The translations under genes were made by a program, and so were the position numbers. A stretch of DNA of 64,000 nt, from positions 30,755 to 94,754 of the forward strand of contig NZ_JALBVB010000040.1 in the NCBI RefSeq assembly GCF_022669155.1, given 5' to 3'. A model generated the notes under the pieces. The model made no database searches and was not told the DNA's origin. It saw nothing but the letters and a program-made list of their open reading frames with translations. Source of the DNA: Kineococcus sp. TRM81007 (lineage in GTDB: Bacteria > Actinomycetota > Actinomycetes > Actinomycetales > Kineococcaceae). Positions 3,875 to 32,703 of this stretch are shown here, piece after piece (the first letter of the stretch is position 1; each line of letters opens with the position of its first letter).

Positions 3875-4540
3875 GTGAACGCCCTGCTCCCGCCCACGAG
3901 GGTCGCCATGCTCCCCGACGTCGAAGCGGAGCGGCTGGAGCTGGCCGACGCCCTCGACGGCCTGGACGCCGAGCAGTGGCGGGCCCCCTCGCTGTGCCGG
4001 GGGTGGGCGGTGCGCGACGTCGTGGCCCACCTGACGCTGTCCACGCGCCAGACGGTGCCCGCCACGGCGTGGCGGGTGCTGCGCGCGCGCGGTTCCTTCG
4101 ACCGCGCCGAGGCCGGCTGGGCCCGTGAACAGGCCCGGCGGTACGCGCCGGCGGAGCTGGTGGGCCGGTTGCGCGCCACCGCCGGGTCGCAGCGGCGCCT
4201 GCGGATCAGCAGTCCGATGGACCCGTTGTGCGACGTGGTGGTGCACCGCCAGGACATCGCCCGCCCCCTGCGGCTGCACCTGCCCAGCGACCCGGCCCGG
4301 GTGGTGGCCGCGCTGCGCCACGCCTGGGTCAACCCCTTCTACGGGCGCCCGCAGCGCCGCTTCGCGGGCCTGCACCTGCAGGCCACCGACGCCGACTGGT
4401 CGGCCGGCGCGCGGGGCCCGCGGGTGCGTGCCCGCGCCGAGGACCTGCTGCTGGTGGCCACCGGCCGCCCCGCGGGCCTCGCCGGCCTCGAGGGCCCGGG
4501 TGCCGCCGAGGTCGCCGCCCGCCTGGGGTGGGAGCGGTGA
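3875..4540 (+). CDS. Maleylpyruvate isomerase-family mycothiol-dependent enzyme
   Basis: DinB/MDMPI-fold protein of 221 residues. The family hallmark is LCRGWAVRDVVAHL near residue 40, with the metal-binding His of the N-terminal helix bundle, and a later HRQDIARPL segment. Actinobacterial relatives use mycothiol as thiol cofactor in isomerisation or conjugation, but most are uncharacterised. GTG 3875 is chosen because AGGAGG ends 4 nt upstream; ATG 3908 is an alternative. It diverges from the protease gene across a roughly 160-bp gap. Confidence 0.8.
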   Translation: MNALLPPTRVAMLPDVEAERLELADALDGLDAEQWRAPSLCRGWAVRDVVAHLTLSTRQTVPATAWRVLRARGSFDRAEAGWAREQARRYAPAELVGRLRATAGSQRRLRISSPMDPLCDVVVHRQDIARPLRLHLPSDPARVVAALRHAWVNPFYGRPQRRFAGLHLQATDADWSAGARGPRVRARAEDLLLVATGRPAGLAGLEGPGAAEVAARLGWER

Positions 4541-4550
4541 GGCCGGGCGC

Positions 4551-4579
4551 CCGGCGCCCGGGTCCTCACCCGGGGCCGG
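4551..4579 (+). terminator. Possible hairpin terminator
   Basis: The stem CCCGGGT / ACCCGGG (4557-4563 and 4568-4574) with loop CCTC is flanked by a second pair of CCGG arms. It lies 11 nt after the MDMPI-type gene stop. There is no T-run, as is common in high-GC actinobacteria. Confidence 0.45.
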
Positions 4580-4644
4580 GTGCCGGCGGACGGTGCACGC
4601 GGGGACGGTCGACGTCACCGCCGACGGCTGAAGGGACGTGCACC

Positions 4645-5052
4645 GTGGGCGAGCACCGTGCGGAGGACCCGCCGGACGCCGGGGACCACCCCGACCCCAG
4701 GGCGCGCTACCGCACCCTTCCCGAGCCGGTCCGCGTCGAGGACGCGGTGGAGAGCCACGACCCCCTGCCGCCGGCACCCGACCCCGCCGAGGGCGGGGAC
4801 GCCAACCGCGCCGCCGTCCTCCGCTACCCCATCGGGGGGCAGGGCGCTGCCGGGTCGCCGGGTCGCCGGCCGCTCAGCGCAGGCCCGCGAGCTCCTCGGC
4901 GCGCACCACGGCCCGCTCCACCGCGTCCAGCGACCCTCCGCCGACGCGCACCATCGCGGCGGCCTCGGCGACCTGCGCGCACGCGGTGGCGGTGCGGGTC
5001 AGGCGCCGGTGCACCTCGGGGTGCCGGCCCTCGGGGCCGGCGGGGACGGTGA
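4645..5052 (+). CDS. Small hypothetical protein, uncertain C-terminus
   Basis: The GTG start follows GAAGGGA at about 8 nt. The first ~70 residues (for example RYRTLPEPVRVED and a DPAEGG segment ending in VLRYPI) read like a short conserved actinobacterial protein rich in Pro, Asp and Arg. The frame then runs about 180 nt into the convergent gene, where it becomes Arg/Pro-rich and looks like antisense translation. A real protein may therefore end near 4850, with the stop lost by an indel. No function is assigned. Confidence 0.4.
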   Translation: MGEHRAEDPPDAGDHPDPRARYRTLPEPVRVEDAVESHDPLPPAPDPAEGGDANRAAVLRYPIGGQGAAGSPGRRPLSAGPRAPRRAPRPAPPRPATLRRRAPSRRPRRPARTRWRCGSGAGAPRGAGPRGRRGR

Positions 5053-25281: not shown

Positions 25282-27657
25282 TCAGACGCCGACGTACGCC
25301 GCCAGGTGCTCGCCGGTCAGGGTGGAGCGGGCGGCGACGAGCTCGGCGGGCGTGCCCTCGAAGACGACCCGGCCGCCGTCGTGGCCCGCCCCGGGGCCGA
25401 GGTCGATGATCCGGTCGGCGTGCGCGATGACCGCCTGGTGGTGCTCGATGACGACGACCGACGTGCCCGCGTCCACGAGCCGGTCCAGCAGGCCGAGCAG
25501 CTGCTCGACGTCGGCGAGGTGCAGCCCGGTGGTCGGCTCGTCGAGGACGTAGACACCGCCCTCCTGGCCCATGTGCGTGGCCAGCTTCAGCCGCTGCCGC
25601 TCGCCGCCGGACAGCGTGGTGAGCGGCTGGCCGAGGGTGAGGTAGCCGAGCCCGACGTCGGCGAGCCGACCCAGGACGGCGTGCGCGGCCGGGATGCGCG
25701 CCTCCCCGGCGCCGAAGAACTCCCCGGCCTCGGCCACCGTCATCGCGAGCACCTCGCTGATGTCGCGCCCGGCGAGGCGGTGCTCCAGGACCGCGGCCTG
25801 GAACCGCTTGCCCTCGCAGTCCTCGCAGGTGGTCGCGACGCCGGCCATCACCCCCAGGTCGGTGTAGACGACGCCGGCGCCGCCGCAGGTGGGGCAGGCG
25901 CCCTCGGAGTTCGCGCTGAACAGCGCGGGCTTGACGCCGTTGGCCTTCGCGAACGCCTTGCGGACCGGCTCGAGCAGCCCGGTGTACGTGGCGGGGTTGC
26001 TGCGGCGCGAGCCGCGGATGGCGCCCTGGTCGACCACGACCACCCCGTCGCGCCCGGCGATCGACCCGTGCACGAGCGAGCTCTTGCCCGAGCCCGCCAC
26101 CCCGGTGACGACGACCAGCACCCCGAGCGGGACGTCGACGTCGACGCCCTTCAGGTTGTGGGTGCTCGCACCGCGGACCTCCAGCACGCCGGTGGGTTCC
26201 CGCACCGTCTCCTTCAGGCGCGTGCGGTCGTCGAGGTGACGGCCGGTCGTCGTGCCGCTGGCCCGCAACCCCTCCACGGTGCCCTCGAAGCACACGGTGC
26301 CACCGGCCGTCCCGGCGCCGGGACCGAGGTCGACCACGTGGTCGGCGATCGCGATCGCCTCGGGCTTGTGCTCCACGACGAGCACGGTGTTGCCCTTGTC
26401 CCGCAGCCGCAGCAGCAGGTCGTTCATCCGCGCCACGTCGTGCGGGTGCAGCCCGATCGTCGGTTCGTCGAAGACGTAGGTGACGTCGGTGAGCGCCGAG
26501 CCGAGGTGGCGGATCATCTTGGTGCGTTGCGCCTCACCGCCCGACAGCGTGCCCGACGGGCGGTCGAGCGAGAGGTACCCCAGGCCGATCTCCGTGAACG
26601 AGTCGAGCAGGTGCCGCAGCCCCGCCAGCAGCGGCGCCACCGAGGGCTCGTCGAGCTCGCCGACCCACCGGGCCGCGTCGCTGATCTGCATCGCGCAGAC
26701 GTCGGCGATGTTCTTCCCGGCGATCCGCGACGAGCGCGCCTCGGGGGCGAGCCGGGTGCCGTCGCACTCGGGGCACGTCTGGAACGTCACCGCCCGCTCC
26801 ACGAAGCGGCGGACGTGCGGCTGCAGCGCGTCCACGTCCTTGGAGAGCACGGACTTCCGGATCTTGGGGATCACGCCCTCGTAGGTGAGGTTGACGCCCT
26901 CGACCTTGACCTTGGTCGGTTCCTTGTGGAGCAGGTCGTGCAGCTCCCTCTTCGTGTACTTCCCGATCGGCTTGCCCAGGTCGAGCCCGATGCCCTGGAA
27001 GAGGCGGCCGTACCAGCCGTCCATGCTGTAACCGGGGACCAGGAGCGCGCCCTCGCTCAGGGACCTGGTCGCGTCGTACAGCGCCGCGCGGTCGATGTCG
27101 TTGACCGTGCCCGCGCCCTCGCACCGCGGGCACATGCCGCCCAGGCGGCTGAACGTCGCCTTCTCCGCCTTGGTGCGCTCGCCGCGCTGGACCGTGATCG
27201 CGCCGCTGGCCCGCACCGAGGGGACGTTGAAGGAGAACGCCCCGGGGCCGCCGATGCGCGGCGTGCCGAGCCGGCTGAACAGGATGCGCAGCATCGCGTG
27301 GGCGTCCGTGGCGGTGCCGACGGTGGAGCGCGGGTTGGCGCCCATCCGCTCCTGGTCCACGACGATGGCCGTCGTCAGCCCGTCGAGCACGTCGACCTCG
27401 GGCCGCGACAGCGCCGGCATGAAACCCTGCACGAACGTGCTGTACGTCTCGTTGATGAGCCGCTGCGACTCCGCGGCGATGGTCCCGAACACCAGCGAGC
27501 TCTTGCCGGAACCGGAGACCCCGGTGAACACCGTCAGCCGGCGCTTGGGGATCTCGACGCTGACGTCCTTGAGGTTGTTCTCGCGTGCCCCGTGCACGCG
27601 GATCAGGTCGTGGCCGTCCGCGGGGTGCTGCGCACCCGTCCCCGTGCTCTCGCCCAC
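25282..27657 (-). CDS. UvrA-like ABC ATPase (DrrC/excinuclease-paralogue type)
   Basis: A 791-residue UvrA-related protein, shorter than canonical UvrA (about 950). It has two ABC modules with Walker A GVSGSGKSS and GVAGSGKSS, signatures LSGGEAQR and LSGGERQR, and several CxxC zinc pairs (CPRCEGAG, CPECDGTR, CPTCGGAG, CEDCEGKR). It matches the class that lacks much of the UvrB-binding region and is linked to intercalating drug resistance (DrrC) or damage tolerance. GTG 27657 begins the conserved part; the frame extends to 27810 but would overlap the divergent promoter. Confidence 0.9.
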   Translation of the reverse strand: MGESTGTGAQHPADGHDLIRVHGARENNLKDVSVEIPKRRLTVFTGVSGSGKSSLVFGTIAAESQRLINETYSTFVQGFMPALSRPEVDVLDGLTTAIVVDQERMGANPRSTVGTATDAHAMLRILFSRLGTPRIGGPGAFSFNVPSVRASGAITVQRGERTKAEKATFSRLGGMCPRCEGAGTVNDIDRAALYDATRSLSEGALLVPGYSMDGWYGRLFQGIGLDLGKPIGKYTKRELHDLLHKEPTKVKVEGVNLTYEGVIPKIRKSVLSKDVDALQPHVRRFVERAVTFQTCPECDGTRLAPEARSSRIAGKNIADVCAMQISDAARWVGELDEPSVAPLLAGLRHLLDSFTEIGLGYLSLDRPSGTLSGGEAQRTKMIRHLGSALTDVTYVFDEPTIGLHPHDVARMNDLLLRLRDKGNTVLVVEHKPEAIAIADHVVDLGPGAGTAGGTVCFEGTVEGLRASGTTTGRHLDDRTRLKETVREPTGVLEVRGASTHNLKGVDVDVPLGVLVVVTGVAGSGKSSLVHGSIAGRDGVVVVDQGAIRGSRRSNPATYTGLLEPVRKAFAKANGVKPALFSANSEGACPTCGGAGVVYTDLGVMAGVATTCEDCEGKRFQAAVLEHRLAGRDISEVLAMTVAEAGEFFGAGEARIPAAHAVLGRLADVGLGYLTLGQPLTTLSGGERQRLKLATHMGQEGGVYVLDEPTTGLHLADVEQLLGLLDRLVDAGTSVVVIEHHQAVIAHADRIIDLGPGAGHDGGRVVFEGTPAELVAARSTLTGEHLAAYVGV

Positions 27658-27681
27658 CGGTCGTCTCCGTCCACGGCTCAG

Positions 27682-27698
27682 CGCACCTCTGCGGTGCG
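27682..27698. promoter_or_regulatory. Inverted repeat in divergent intergenic region
   Basis: CGCACC-TCTGC-GGTGCG, with perfect 6-bp arms, sits 25 bp upstream of the UvrA-like gene and 105 bp upstream of the SRPBCC gene. A candidate shared operator; no regulator is identified. Confidence 0.35.
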
Positions 27699-27802
27699 AG
27701 CGGTCCGACTGCCGACGAGGGTGATCGTGCCACGCGGCGGCGGCGTTGCCGAGACCCTCGGGGCTCTGGCTCCACCCCGTGCCGTCGTGCCACCCTCGTG
27801 CG

Positions 27803-28207
27803 GTGACCACCGGATCGCAGCACCTGAGCGTGCACGTCGACCGGCCGGCCGGGCAGGTCTACGCCTTCGCCCGCGACCCGGCGAACCTGACGCGGTGGTC
27901 CTCCGGCGTGGGCACCTCGGTGGTGCACGAGGACGGCGAGTGGTTCGTCCTCGCACCGCAGGGCCGGGCGCGGATCAGGTTCGCCCCGCTCAACGAGTTC
28001 GGCGTGCTCGACCACGACGTGCTGACACCGTCCGGTGAGGAGGTCCACGTGCCGCTGCGGGTCATCGCCGACGGCGACGGGTGCGAGGTGGTGTTCACGC
28101 TGCGCCGCTCGCCCGGCACGAGCGACGCGGACCTCGAGCGGGACGCCGCCCTCGTGACCGAGGACCTCGCCCGCCTGAAGCGGGTCGTGGAGGCCGCACC
28201 GGTGTGA
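27803..28207 (+). CDS. SRPBCC-family protein
   Basis: A 134-residue START-like domain protein. It begins HLSVHVDRPAGQVYAFARDPANLTRW, characteristic of small polyketide cyclase/SRPBCC proteins, and ends in the C-terminal helix DLARLKRVVEA. It probably binds a hydrophobic ligand in the cytoplasm. GTG 27803 lacks a strong ribosome site. It diverges from the UvrA-like gene, separated by 145 bp. Confidence 0.8.
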   Translation: MTTGSQHLSVHVDRPAGQVYAFARDPANLTRWSSGVGTSVVHEDGEWFVLAPQGRARIRFAPLNEFGVLDHDVLTPSGEEVHVPLRVIADGDGCEVVFTLRRSPGTSDADLERDAALVTEDLARLKRVVEAAPV

Positions 28208-28294: not shown

Positions 28295-28834
28295 GTGGGG
28301 ACCGACGCCCTCCTGCTCGGCCGGCGGGCGTACGACATCTTCGCCGCCCACTGGCCGCACCAGCGGGGCGGTGGGATCGCCGCGCTCTTCAACCGCGTCC
28401 CGAAGTACGTGGCCTCCCGCGGCAGGCCGGACCTGTCGTGGGCCGGCTCCACCCAGCTGGGCCCCGACCTCCCCGGCGCGGTGCGCCGGGTCCGTGACCG
28501 GCACGAGCACGTGAAGGTCGTCGGGAGCCTGGACCTGGTGCAGACACTGCTGCGCGAGAAGCTCTTCGACCGTCTGGACCTGCGGGTGCACCCGATCGTG
28601 CTCGGTGCGGGGAAGAAGGTGTTCGGCGGTGGTGCGGTGCCCACGAACCTCACGCTCCTCGAACTCCCGGTCGCCGGCCCGAGGGGCACCGTGCACCTTC
28701 GCTACGCGCTGGCCGACGGCGAACCCGCCACGGGGGACATGAGCGCACCCGATCGCGGTGCCGGGAACGGCGGTCGACCCGCCCCCAGCCCGTCGCGACC
28801 GCACACCGTGGTCAGCTCCTGGCCCACTCCATGA
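28295..28834 (+). pseudogene. RibD/DHFR-like reductase, N-terminal truncation
   Basis: The sequence matches the C-terminal two thirds of the dihydrofolate-reductase-like RibD-C family: ALLLGRRAYDIFAAHWP, VKVVGSLDLVQTLLREKLFD, HPIVLGAGKKVFGG. The usual beginning (a VVSTFVTLDG-type strand plus about 60 residues before the G-R-x-A/T-Y motif) is missing. The 87 bp upstream do not encode it in any frame. It lacks most of the NADPH site, so is probably inactive. The final ~35 residues are unlike the family and overlap the convergent gene. Confidence 0.72.
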
Positions 28835-30002
28835 CCGGTCCGCGGTGCACGACGGCGTAGACACGGTCACGCAACTGGTTGGCCTCCTCATCGGTCGAGG
28901 TGGCACCCAGGGGGCGCAGCACCAGGCGCAGCAGCACGTTGACCTGCCCGGGCCGGGTTCCCAGCCGTTCCCGCGCCGCCGGCGGGAGGTCTTCATGCCG
29001 GGTGGTGGCCAGGACGCTGACGGATTCCAGGTCCTCGGCGGCGGCCCCCAGCGCCGAGCGCACCGCGTCGCCGAGCAGTTCGGCATCGACGTCGTCACCG
29101 GTGACGATGGACAGGTCCCGGCGCACCGGTGGCTGGGAGGACACCGGCCGCCACGGGGACAGGTCCAGCAGTTGCCCCGCGAGGCGCGGATCGTTCGAGC
29201 GCAGAACGCGGATGTCGTCGATGCCCTTGCGCAGCATCAGAGCCCGGTCCAAGCCCATGCCCAGCGCCAGGCCGCCGACGCGGGCCGGGTCCAGGCCTGC
29301 GCCGGTCAGGACGTGCTCGGCGATCAGACCGCACTCGGCCAGCTCCACCCACCCCGCGGGGGTGCGCACGTCCACCTGCATCCCGGCGCGGGTGTAGGGG
29401 TGCACCGCGGCGGTGGTGCGCCACTGCGCCCCCGGGAGCACGGCCTGCACGAGCAGAGCGATCATCTGCTGCATCTGGCCCGGCCCGGGCAGCGACGTGG
29501 GACCGGCGTCCGGGTCGTCGTCTGCGGTGATGACGATGCGCCACAGGTCCACCTGGTGCGGGGTGCCCACGTGCAGGCGGTCGATGCTGTCGCGGCGGTG
29601 GACCACCCCTGGCAGCGCCAGCAGCACGTCGAGCCCGTTCAGTCCGTCTCCCGCACCACCGCCGGCTCGGAGCCTGGCGGCGAGCTGTCGAAGGACCGGC
29701 GGGATGCCGGCACTGGTGTGGCTGCGCAGCATGACGCTCTCGCCGACGTAGCGGCTGTAGCGGGCATCGCGGGTGACGTCCCCGTGCGCGTAGCCCAGGC
29801 GGTCGTAGTTGTCCTCCACCGCCACCAGCGGATGCAGGTGGCGCAGGTCCAGGGCGCAGCCCCACGTGCGGGTGAGGGCGCTGAGCACGTCCTCGAGCAG
29901 CAGTTGCATCGCGTGCGGGCCCTGGGCGGGATCGGTGAGGTCGCGCAGTTCGAGTGCCGCGAGCAGGTCTCGGGCGGGCAGCGGAGAAGGTGAGGTGTTC
30001 AC
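28812..30002 (-). CDS. Stand-alone PheS-like class II synthetase with FDX-ACB domain
   Basis: A 396-residue protein related to the phenylalanyl-tRNA synthetase alpha chain. Motif 1 region has MLRSHTSAGIPPVLR near residue 92. Motif 2 has VVHRRDSIDRLHVGTPHQ near 134, and a further segment reads HPYTRAGMQVDV. Motif 3 is LGMGLDRALMLRKGIDDIR near 249. Residues ~295-392 form a ferredoxin-fold anticodon-binding domain (VRRDLSIV...TDEEANQLRDRV) normally at the C-end of PheT. The single-chain layout is like mitochondrial PheRS. Pocket positions differ (HPY where PheS has FPF), so a different amino acid is likely. I recall a 'PheS-related mystery ligase' family name but cannot verify it. GTG with AAGGA upstream. 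Confidence 0.85.
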   Translation of the reverse strand: MNTSPSPLPARDLLAALELRDLTDPAQGPHAMQLLLEDVLSALTRTWGCALDLRHLHPLVAVEDNYDRLGYAHGDVTRDARYSRYVGESVMLRSHTSAGIPPVLRQLAARLRAGGGAGDGLNGLDVLLALPGVVHRRDSIDRLHVGTPHQVDLWRIVITADDDPDAGPTSLPGPGQMQQMIALLVQAVLPGAQWRTTAAVHPYTRAGMQVDVRTPAGWVELAECGLIAEHVLTGAGLDPARVGGLALGMGLDRALMLRKGIDDIRVLRSNDPRLAGQLLDLSPWRPVSSQPPVRRDLSIVTGDDVDAELLGDAVRSALGAAAEDLESVSVLATTRHEDLPPAARERLGTRPGQVNVLLRLVLRPLGATSTDEEANQLRDRVYAVVHRGPVMEWARS

Positions 30003-30089
30003 GGGCGTTCCTTCGTGTGGTCGGTCCGGTGGGCGACACCCCCGGCCGACGGCCCCGTGATGGGCTACCGGCAGACCTCGGTGCCCTCA

Positions 30090-30106
30090 CGGCTGCTCAG
30101 CAGCCG
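30090..30106. promoter_or_regulatory. Perfect 17-bp palindrome upstream of the PheS-like gene
   Basis: CGGCTGCT-C-AGCAGCCG. It lies about 90 bp 5' of the PheS-like gene and downstream of the frameshifted gene at 30305. It could be an operator or the terminator of the upstream remnant. The 302 bp between 30003 and 30304 otherwise show no gene. Confidence 0.45.
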
Positions 30107-30304
30107 GGGGCGAGCAAAGGAGGTCGTGAGCCGAAGCACACCTCCACGGTAGCGCGCCCGGTCCCCACCGTCATCCACGTACGGACCACCTCGGTGTCGA
30201 CCGCGATCGACACGACCGTGAACCGCGGGTGCGACTGGCAGGAGGGGGTTGGGGAGGGCCCGCGGTGCAGGCCCGGTTTGGTGCTTCGGTGAGCAGGCCG
30301 GTGG

Positions 30305-31918: not shown

Positions 31919-32479
31919 TCAGGGGTGGCTGGCCGGGTGGCCGTGGGAATCGGGTAGCGAGGGCCAGCGGGTGGCGGCCCAGGCGGACCAGGTGGCGTAC
32001 CCGGTCGGAGGTGGGGGCACCGGATCGCCTCGGAGCTCATCGGCGGTCGGCTCCTGGAAGCTCTCACGCCAGCCCTGGAGGTCCTCAGCGCTGATCTCGA
32101 ACGTCTGCTCGGGTGTGCGGGCGAACCGCTGCCGGATCCGGGTGAGTTGCGTCTCGACGTCCAGGGGCAGGTACTCGATGCGGCAGTCGGCTCCGGCTGC
32201 GGTGAACAACCAGCGCAGGGCCGAGCGCTCATCGCGCCCCCACAGTCCGAAGTCGACGACCACGTCGAGCCCTCCTCCGGCCACCTGCAGGGCCGTCCAC
32301 AACAGCCGTCCTTCCAGGACGTCTCGCTTGCCGCCGGCATCGGGCTCGCCGAAGAGGGGGATCATCCACTCATCCGGTGTCAGGCGCAGCGCCTGCTGCT
32401 GCTGCTCCAACTGTCGCGCCCGGACCGTCTTGCCCGCACCCGGAAGCCCCACCATCAGGATCACTGTGGCTCTGCTCAA
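31919..32479 (-). CDS. P-loop kinase-like ATPase (AAA_33/zeta-like)
   Basis: A 186-residue protein starting at TTG 32479, chosen because GGAGGT lies 8 nt upstream. Walker A GLPGAGKT (residues 11-18) is followed by LTPDEWMIPLFGE, an acidic substrate-side segment, and DVVVDFGLWGRDER, which is the Asp-containing Walker B-like strand of the AAA_33 group. A LID-like Arg pair follows at RQRFARTPE. Relatives include phosphotransferases of small molecules and zeta toxins. No antitoxin is adjacent, so a metabolic or resistance kinase is more likely. Confidence 0.78.
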   Translation of the reverse strand: MSRATVILMVGLPGAGKTVRARQLEQQQQALRLTPDEWMIPLFGEPDAGGKRDVLEGRLLWTALQVAGGGLDVVVDFGLWGRDERSALRWLFTAAGADCRIEYLPLDVETQLTRIRQRFARTPEQTFEISAEDLQGWRESFQEPTADELRGDPVPPPPTGYATWSAWAATRWPSLPDSHGHPASHP

Positions 32480-32703
32480 GGCTCTCGACCTCCAGGGGAC
32501 CTCGATGACGACGGAGCCGATCAGTCGCGCTCCTGGTGCTGGAACTGCGCGATGAGCAGCCCTCAGCCGACCTCTGCAACGGCTTCCGAACCTGCGCGGA
32601 CGAGAGAACCCACCGGATCGACACGGCCGCGACGCGGATCTTCGACGGGTGCGCTGCAGTTCGACGTCGGCTTCCGGGTTCCCGGGTCCCTTGCGCCTTC
32701 CGT

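Follow-up and report, generated by a model that had tools for sequence, protein, structure and literature searches.

A phenylalanine-codon leader precedes srmL, a gene of bacteria and huge phages that likely encodes an auxiliary single-chain phenylalanyl-tRNA synthetase

Introduction

In Escherichia coli, the phenylalanyl-tRNA synthetase (PheRS) gene pheST lies behind an attenuator in which the Phe codons of the leader peptide pheM exert the control. A 2024 catalogue of synthetases distinguishes three PheRS types, PheRS-A, PheRS-B, and PheRS-M, and for the one-chain type gives human mitochondrial FARS2 as its example (PMC11580382). Auxiliary synthetases under leader control have been described in actinomycetes: as far as PMC4787780, citing Vecchione and Sello (2010), relates, trpRS1 of Streptomyces encodes an indolmycin-resistant TrpRS and is regulated by ribosome-mediated attenuation. 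A survey of actinobacterial amino-acid leaders (PMC1262725) carries no report of a leader for srmL, and the NCBIfam entry for the SrmL family (NF051887) gives no substrate, tRNA, or regulation. Our literature search for SrmL or "mystery ligase" found no relevant paper, and searches for monomeric bacterial PheRS and for phage-encoded PheRS, conducted largely outside subscription journals, found nothing.

Here we analyse the srmL locus in a 64,000-nucleotide stretch of the genome of Kineococcus sp. TRM81007 (contig NZ_JALBVB010000040.1, positions 30,755 to 94,754), referred to below as the window, together with its relatives in other bacteria, plasmids, and huge phages.

Results

SrmL is an additional PheS-related protein beside the ordinary PheRS

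The srmL reading frame is intact and represents a genuine gene (Table 1). In an hmmscan search the best family was NF051887, "PheS-related mystery ligase SrmL" (7.5e-151, 502 bits; curated cutoff 300 bits), which is the named family of PheS-related ligases to which the initial annotation had alluded. The protein scored below the cutoffs for mitochondrial PheRS (TIGR00469, 92 bits against 258.35) and bacterial PheS (TIGR00468, 72.5 bits against 237.45), and by these cutoffs it is a SrmL member outside both families. Pfam tRNA-synt_2d (PF01409) matched at 3e-22, and FDX-ACB (PF03147) gave 23.2 bits, under the Pfam cutoff of 31.1. The genome of the window also encodes an ordinary PheS and an adjoining PheT, so srmL is an extra gene. 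An ordinary PheS was likewise present in all 14 SrmL genomes searched, which indicates that srmL is dispensable for growth and which we count against the explanation favoured below.

Table 1. Features of the srmL locus, in window coordinates or SrmL residue numbers
Feature	Position	Strand	Basis or remark
srmL	28812..30002	minus	396 aa, start GTG, without internal stop; NF051887, 502 bits
Class II PheRS-type catalytic core	about residues 28-285 of SrmL		PF01409
C-terminal FDX-ACB domain	about residues 288-388 of SrmL		weak PF03147 match and AF2 model
Amino-acid pocket and motif 3 region	29141..29402	minus	family-invariant residues; alignment with own PheS and mitochondrial PheRS
Parts of the pocket	H201-P-Y203-T204; A222-E223-C224-G225; A246-L-G-M-G...R253		PheRS has FPF-V/T at the first and GGCG at the second
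Whole leader element	30000..30139	minus	covariance model R1, 88.9 bits
Leader ORF, 24 aa	30065..30139	minus	(V/M)LRLTTSFARPRLLSSREGTEVCR; GTG start, TAG stop; conserved F-x-x-P uORF
Invariant Phe codon (TTT) of the leader	30116..30118	minus	69 leaders
-10 hexamer TACCGT	30146..30151	minus	6 nt before the leader start codon
Segment 1	30102..30109	minus	CCCCGGCT; pairs with segment 4 or segment 2
Segment 2	30086..30095	minus	local partner of segment 1 (1:2 helix)
Segment 4	30040..30047	minus	GGCCGGGG; long-range partner of segment 1 (1:4 helix)

The predicted fold is that of mitochondrial PheRS

An AF2 model of the window protein, built from 23 relatives, reached a pLDDT of 91. Its best structural match was human mitochondrial PheRS, which outscored all alpha subunits and aligned with SrmL residues 1-393, the ACB domain included (Z 36, rmsd 3.0, 352-353 residues, 22% identity). 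This whole-chain superposition, which the initial annotation had proposed as a check, agrees with its description of a PheS core joined to an FDX-ACB domain in a single chain, as in mitochondrial PheRS. The class II motifs that it had listed (RSHTS, VVHRRD...HQ, and GMGLDR...GIDDIR) can all be read in the window ORF, as can the pocket strings HPYT and AECGLI. A loss of motif residues on careful alignment had been named as a possible objection; in the 23 aligned relatives the catalytic and pocket residues H201, Y203, T204, E220, E223, C224, G225, Q150, R136, and R253 are invariant, as is the class II catalytic arginine R137. The arginines of motifs 2 and 3, the amino-group glutamine Q150, and A246 of the PheRS active site are retained, and none of the class II catalytic residues that were checked varies among actinobacteria, Myxococcota, and phages.

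Pocket residues are compatible with phenylalanine, and the anticodon site is altered

From the HPY and AECGLI strings it had been proposed that the enzyme probably activates something other than phenylalanine. Human cytosolic PheRS, which is Phe-specific, has NPYTEPS and GNSG where bacterial PheRS has FPFT...GGCG and SrmL has HPYT...AECG. This is a precedent for polar residues replacing the first Phe and the Gly, and the SrmL pocket is thus no argument against phenylalanine. Together with the Phe-linked regulation described below, it speaks against the earlier proposal. In the alignment SrmL also has D152 where PheRS has Glu, a position that we take to be E220 in the numbering of Thermus PheRS.

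In Thermus thermophilus, residues D729, Y731, and S742 of PheT read G34 (PMC9976931). At these places the bacterial SrmL proteins have A/S332, T334, and N355, whereas the PheT of the window's own genome retains D, Y, and S; an aromatic residue near the Y731 place is kept in three of the four phage members read. Since the residues that read G34 are not conserved, SrmL may read its tRNA differently from bacterial PheRS, and the altered site, as judged from the alignment, is the strongest remaining doubt about the substrate.

A short open reading frame with an invariant Phe codon precedes srmL

Directly upstream of srmL lies a leader of its own that had been missed in the initial annotation and is described here for the first time. 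A short F-x-x-P ORF precedes every srmL examined in detail. We read 69 leaders, from Actinomycetota, Myxococcota, and two plasmids, with two further Myxococcota loci left out; these loci are related, and the counts are therefore not independent, but they span many genera, two phyla, and a gammaproteobacterial plasmid. The Phe codon is invariant (69/69) and stands six bases ahead of a CCC segment. It is TTT (UUU) in 65 leaders, although TTT accounts for only 92 of the 4656 Phe codons (about 2%) in neighbourhood genes; the other four leaders use TTC, so the amino acid itself is what is kept. The residue before the Phe varies (Arg, Ser, Trp, Leu, or Gly), and the Phe sits at a variable distance of 3-10 residues from the leader start. 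In the loci L014-L026, except in the Geodermatophilus and f26 groups, the Phe codon is mostly preceded by CGA, a rare codon that makes up 3% of Arg codons near srmL; a slow CGA-UUU pair may have been selected. A macrolide-type +X(+) arrest motif was considered and rejected, as it is not conserved.

Of 43 leaders, 40 have a TANNNT hexamer 6-9 nt, typically about 6-7 nt, upstream of the leader start, where shuffling would give 2.1. With a -10 hexamer so near the start, the transcript that carries the leader ORF is probably leaderless, and the spacing suggests that this probably holds for srmL leaders as a rule. In the eight genomes where the covariance model R1 scores, it finds a single site per genome, before srmL, and in the window's own genome this is likewise the only match; two divergent genomes gave no match. 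A search of Rfam found no known RNA family in the leader.

The leader RNA has mutually exclusive pairings

The CCCC segment that follows the Phe codon by six bases finds its partner in a GGGG segment located some 60-70 nt downstream. In this 1:4 helix 95.4% of cells are paired, against at most 67% for slid partners, and the compensatory changes include C-G to G-C and G-C to A-U. The 1:2 helix is 88% paired, also with compensatory changes. Both helices share segment 1 and are therefore mutually exclusive, with covariation in each. In many clades a segment at the leader stop, complementary to the Shine-Dalgarno sequence (anti-SD), pairs with the srmL SD. When own-species duplexes were compared with cross-species ones, they were better than in 5000 of 5000 permutations for the 1:4, 1:2, and SD:anti-SD pairings, a result somewhat inflated by the relatedness of the loci.

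Folding with the ribosome placed at different positions was computed for actinobacterial and Myxococcota loci. Opening of the SD was predicted to be easier with the ribosome near the Phe codon than downstream, with a mean contrast of 1.78 kcal/mol against 0.44 for shuffled spacers; the cost was lower near Phe in 24 of 30 loci (p 0.002, uncorrected for kinship). A strong switch at the ribosome-binding site (RBS) is predicted for Nocardia, Pseudonocardia, Arthrobacter, and some Myxococcota loci. This folding gives no such effect for Lentzea, for Saccharothrix, or for the window's own clade, in which the anti-SD is weak and the RBS opens to nearly the same degree wherever the ribosome stands. Once the ribosome has reached the leader stop codon, the predicted fold looks ON again; this, and the missing switch in Lentzea and the window's clade, count against the favoured explanation.

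The Azotobacter plasmid leader ends in an intrinsic terminator. Here, a ribosome that is absent or upstream of Phe is predicted to leave the 1:4 and 2:3 fold (antiterminator), with a terminator probability near 0; once the A-site is at or past the Phe codon, the terminator probability rises to about 0.95-0.96 and stays there until close to the leader stop. The best reading of the direction, drawn from these models, is that a stall at the Phe codon would turn srmL on. This gammaproteobacterial leader (Azotobacter chroococcum plasmid, locus L107, 5767-5914), with its terminator and U-tract, is probably the easiest natural system in which to test the switch.

Distribution, genomic neighbours, and mobile copies

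A genome scan yielded 42 relatives, mostly in Actinomycetota and some in Myxococcota. Counting matches over the NCBI cutoff, 25 of the 394 genomes of the class had SrmL, and every one of the 20 genomes drawn from a single family (f26) was among them. It was present in 2 of 11 genomes of the window's own genus (that of the window and one other) and in 28 of 146 Myxococcota-centred genomes. In the tree the window gene groups with Geodermatophilus and with the copy from the same genus (99/98). The genes from phages make up a single clade (100/99), whose nearest relative is the Azotobacter plasmid gene (90/84).

Plasmid copies were found in Glutamicibacter and Azotobacter, and a remnant cut by an insertion sequence was found in Corynebacterium; phage and plasmid members scored 416-524 bits against NF051887. 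On plasmid pGnB68 of Glutamicibacter nicotianae (L106, 4275-7056), intact srmL and its leader lie directly downstream of the chloramphenicol-efflux gene cmx. The remnant on C. diphtheriae FRC0402_p2 (L108, 4260-5675), interrupted by an IS-type transposase, lies between erm(X) and tet(65).

In the window, srmL is flanked by a RibD_C-type gene, an SRPBCC-type gene, an ABC/UvrA-like ATPase, an AAA_33 kinase, and others. The small kinase is of the AAA_33 or zeta-toxin-like kind (31919-32500, minus strand), and the large ATPase, of the drug-resistance type, is two genes downstream of srmL (25282-27810, minus strand). Neighbouring genes are conserved only within a genus or family, in line with the earlier remark that srmL has no obvious partner, and for this reason a neighbourhood survey was rejected as a route to function. 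The only tRNA genes near bacterial srmL were tRNA-Arg genes, in three close Pseudonocardia, and they say little about function.

Some huge-phage srmL copies lie beside tRNA-Phe genes or behind a predicted Phe attenuator

Five huge-phage records (415-635 kb) carry srmL, scoring 416-443 bits, and in each contig srmL is the only full PF01409 match. A profile scan had added one of the phage copies; scans with single phage proteins added none. These contigs hold 49-71 tRNA genes each (four records counted) and several class II synthetases.

In one phage (L110), srmL is directly flanked by tRNA-Phe(GAA) on both sides, and these two are the only tRNA-Phe genes among the 17 tRNA genes of the stretch. 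In a second (L112) a tRNA-Phe gene lies within 0.2 kb of srmL, and in a third (L149) srmL follows a HisRS-like gene and is near a SerRS gene with four tRNA-Ser genes, which adjoin the SerRS. The HisRS/HisZ-like gene directly upstream (4348-4983) is a 211-aa fragment, shorter than any full HisRS. The surroundings of srmL in phage L111 showed nothing comparable.

In the phage LR745206, srmL is preceded by an ORF, MNTNTTFNFFFSHKMV, with four Phe codons, followed by a strong terminator. For the nascent RNA, the predicted antiterminator probability is 0.97-0.99 while the A-site occupies codons 6-11, the part of the ORF that contains the four Phe codons; at positions earlier than codon 6 or later than codon 13 it is near 0. 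A simple thermodynamic scan of the full-length leader always gave the terminator, as expected for kinetic attenuation. By these models the leader would be a Phe attenuator of the textbook kind, and its sequence is unrelated to that of the bacterial leader. The Phe codon of the bacterial leaders, the four-Phe attenuator of this phage, and the tRNA-Phe genes beside phage srmL all make the regulation point to phenylalanine.

Discussion

We consider it likely that SrmL is an auxiliary single-chain PheRS of bacteria and huge phages, gated by the supply of Phe-tRNA, and that its substrates are, with good probability, Phe and tRNA-Phe. The enzyme would activate phenylalanine and charge tRNA-Phe without a beta subunit, being built like mitochondrial PheRS, and the short ORF of its leader, usually a leaderless one, would control its expression. 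With Phe-tRNA plentiful, ribosomes would not halt at the rare UUU codon and would move on into RNA segment 1; with this segment occupied, the message would settle in an OFF fold in which the start region is occluded in actinobacteria or the intrinsic terminator forms in the Azotobacter plasmid copy. With Phe-tRNA scarce, a ribosome would wait at UUU and leave segment 1 free for segment 4; segments 2 and 3 would form a second helix, and SrmL would be made. The gene is probably carried as a spare copy that is switched on when loaded Phe-tRNA runs short; candidate reasons for keeping it beside PheST are such shortage, drug tolerance, and, in phages, takeover of translation. Counted against this explanation is the single Phe codon of the bacterial leaders, which sets them apart from known Phe attenuators.

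A refinement with the same chemistry holds that SrmL is a drug-tolerant second PheRS, kept against a natural PheRS inhibitor or another block in soil that empties Phe-tRNA. We regard it as a tentative possibility, in which the leader might sense the block by analogy with the indolmycin-resistant TrpRS1 of Streptomyces. It would fit the patchy spread in the class and genus, a normal PheS always alongside, a pocket of another type than that of bacterial PheRS, and the mobile copies beside cmx and, as a remnant, between erm(X) and tet(65), although these plasmid neighbours may be a matter of hitch-hiking. No PheRS inhibitor or producer cluster was seen near any copy, and the presence of srmL in every f26 genome drawn looks like housekeeping. 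The plasmid copies near ribosome-drug resistance genes, together with the invariance of both F and P, might also suggest that the leader, in place of sensing Phe-tRNA, encodes a peptide that arrests the ribosome in dependence on a drug or ligand, through an F-x-x-P arrest motif. We consider this improbable: a Phe only 3-10 residues from the start is too close and too variable for most arrest peptides, the P is explained by the pairing of its CCC codon, and the phage leader has Phe codons without F-x-x-P.

It also seems unlikely, if somewhat less so, that SrmL activates another amino acid or charges another acceptor, with the Phe codon coupling it only to Phe or to the general status of translation. 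The invariant H201, Y203, and E223, where bacterial PheRS has F, F, and G, the replacement of E by D152, the changed G34-reading residues, and the substrate left open by the NCBI curators are in keeping with this idea, but a Phe-specific enzyme provides the NPY/GNSG precedent, Phe-codon control occurs in two unrelated leader designs, and phage srmL has tRNA-Phe genes beside it and synthetase clusters around it. The polar pocket and the changed G34 site would be compatible, too, with an inducible recoding enzyme that puts a non-Phe amino acid on tRNA-Phe or on a tRNA whose anticodon is read differently, which strikes us as very unlikely; by this route, cells starved of Phe-tRNA would keep translating UUU and UUC codons by tolerated miscoding. 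Just as little probability attaches to a non-catalytic regulator or tRNA-binding paralogue that reports uncharged tRNA-Phe. Class II synthetase paralogues with such roles exist (HisZ), and an ordinary PheS is always present; against it stand the invariant catalytic residues in actinobacteria, Myxococcota, and phages, the anticodon-binding fold that is kept, and the lack of a conserved partner gene.

If SrmL is indeed an auxiliary PheRS, its one-chain form, carried by free-living bacteria, by plasmids, and by huge phages, would constitute a fourth PheRS type, and a family left as a mystery by its curators would gain a function. It would further offer a compact single-gene PheRS for genetic-code work and a handle on how mitochondrial PheRS arose. 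The leader, as a putative dedicated Phe-tRNA sensor with one rare UUU that occurs once per genome, makes the proposed role of SrmL directly testable, and should the drug-tolerance refinement hold, it would matter for PheRS-directed antibiotics.

Among described systems, Streptomyces trpRS1, as far as the citing account goes, resembles srmL as an auxiliary synthetase gene under leader-peptide control in an actinomycete; srmL differs from it in amino acid, class, and leader, and any drug link of srmL is hypothetical. With E. coli pheST, srmL shares Phe codons in a leader ORF before a PheRS gene, or a putative one, and the LR745206 leader would be of this classical type, whereas the bacterial srmL leaders have a single rare UUU, are probably leaderless in most cases, and are predicted to work chiefly through the ribosome-binding site, the Azotobacter copy alone having a terminator. 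Bacterial PheS (TIGR00468) shares class II motifs 1-3 and the core fold with SrmL (Z up to 26); SrmL, judging from its domain content, would need no beta subunit to supply the ACB domain. The closest likeness is to mitochondrial PheRS (PheRS-M, FARS2; PDB 3cmq and 3tup), which is likewise one chain with a PheS-type core and a C-terminal FDX-ACB domain, whereas SrmL is encoded by bacteria, plasmids, and phages behind a leader of its own, has HPY/ECG where mitochondrial PheRS has FPF/GCG, and carries about 10 extra residues in its ACB domain.
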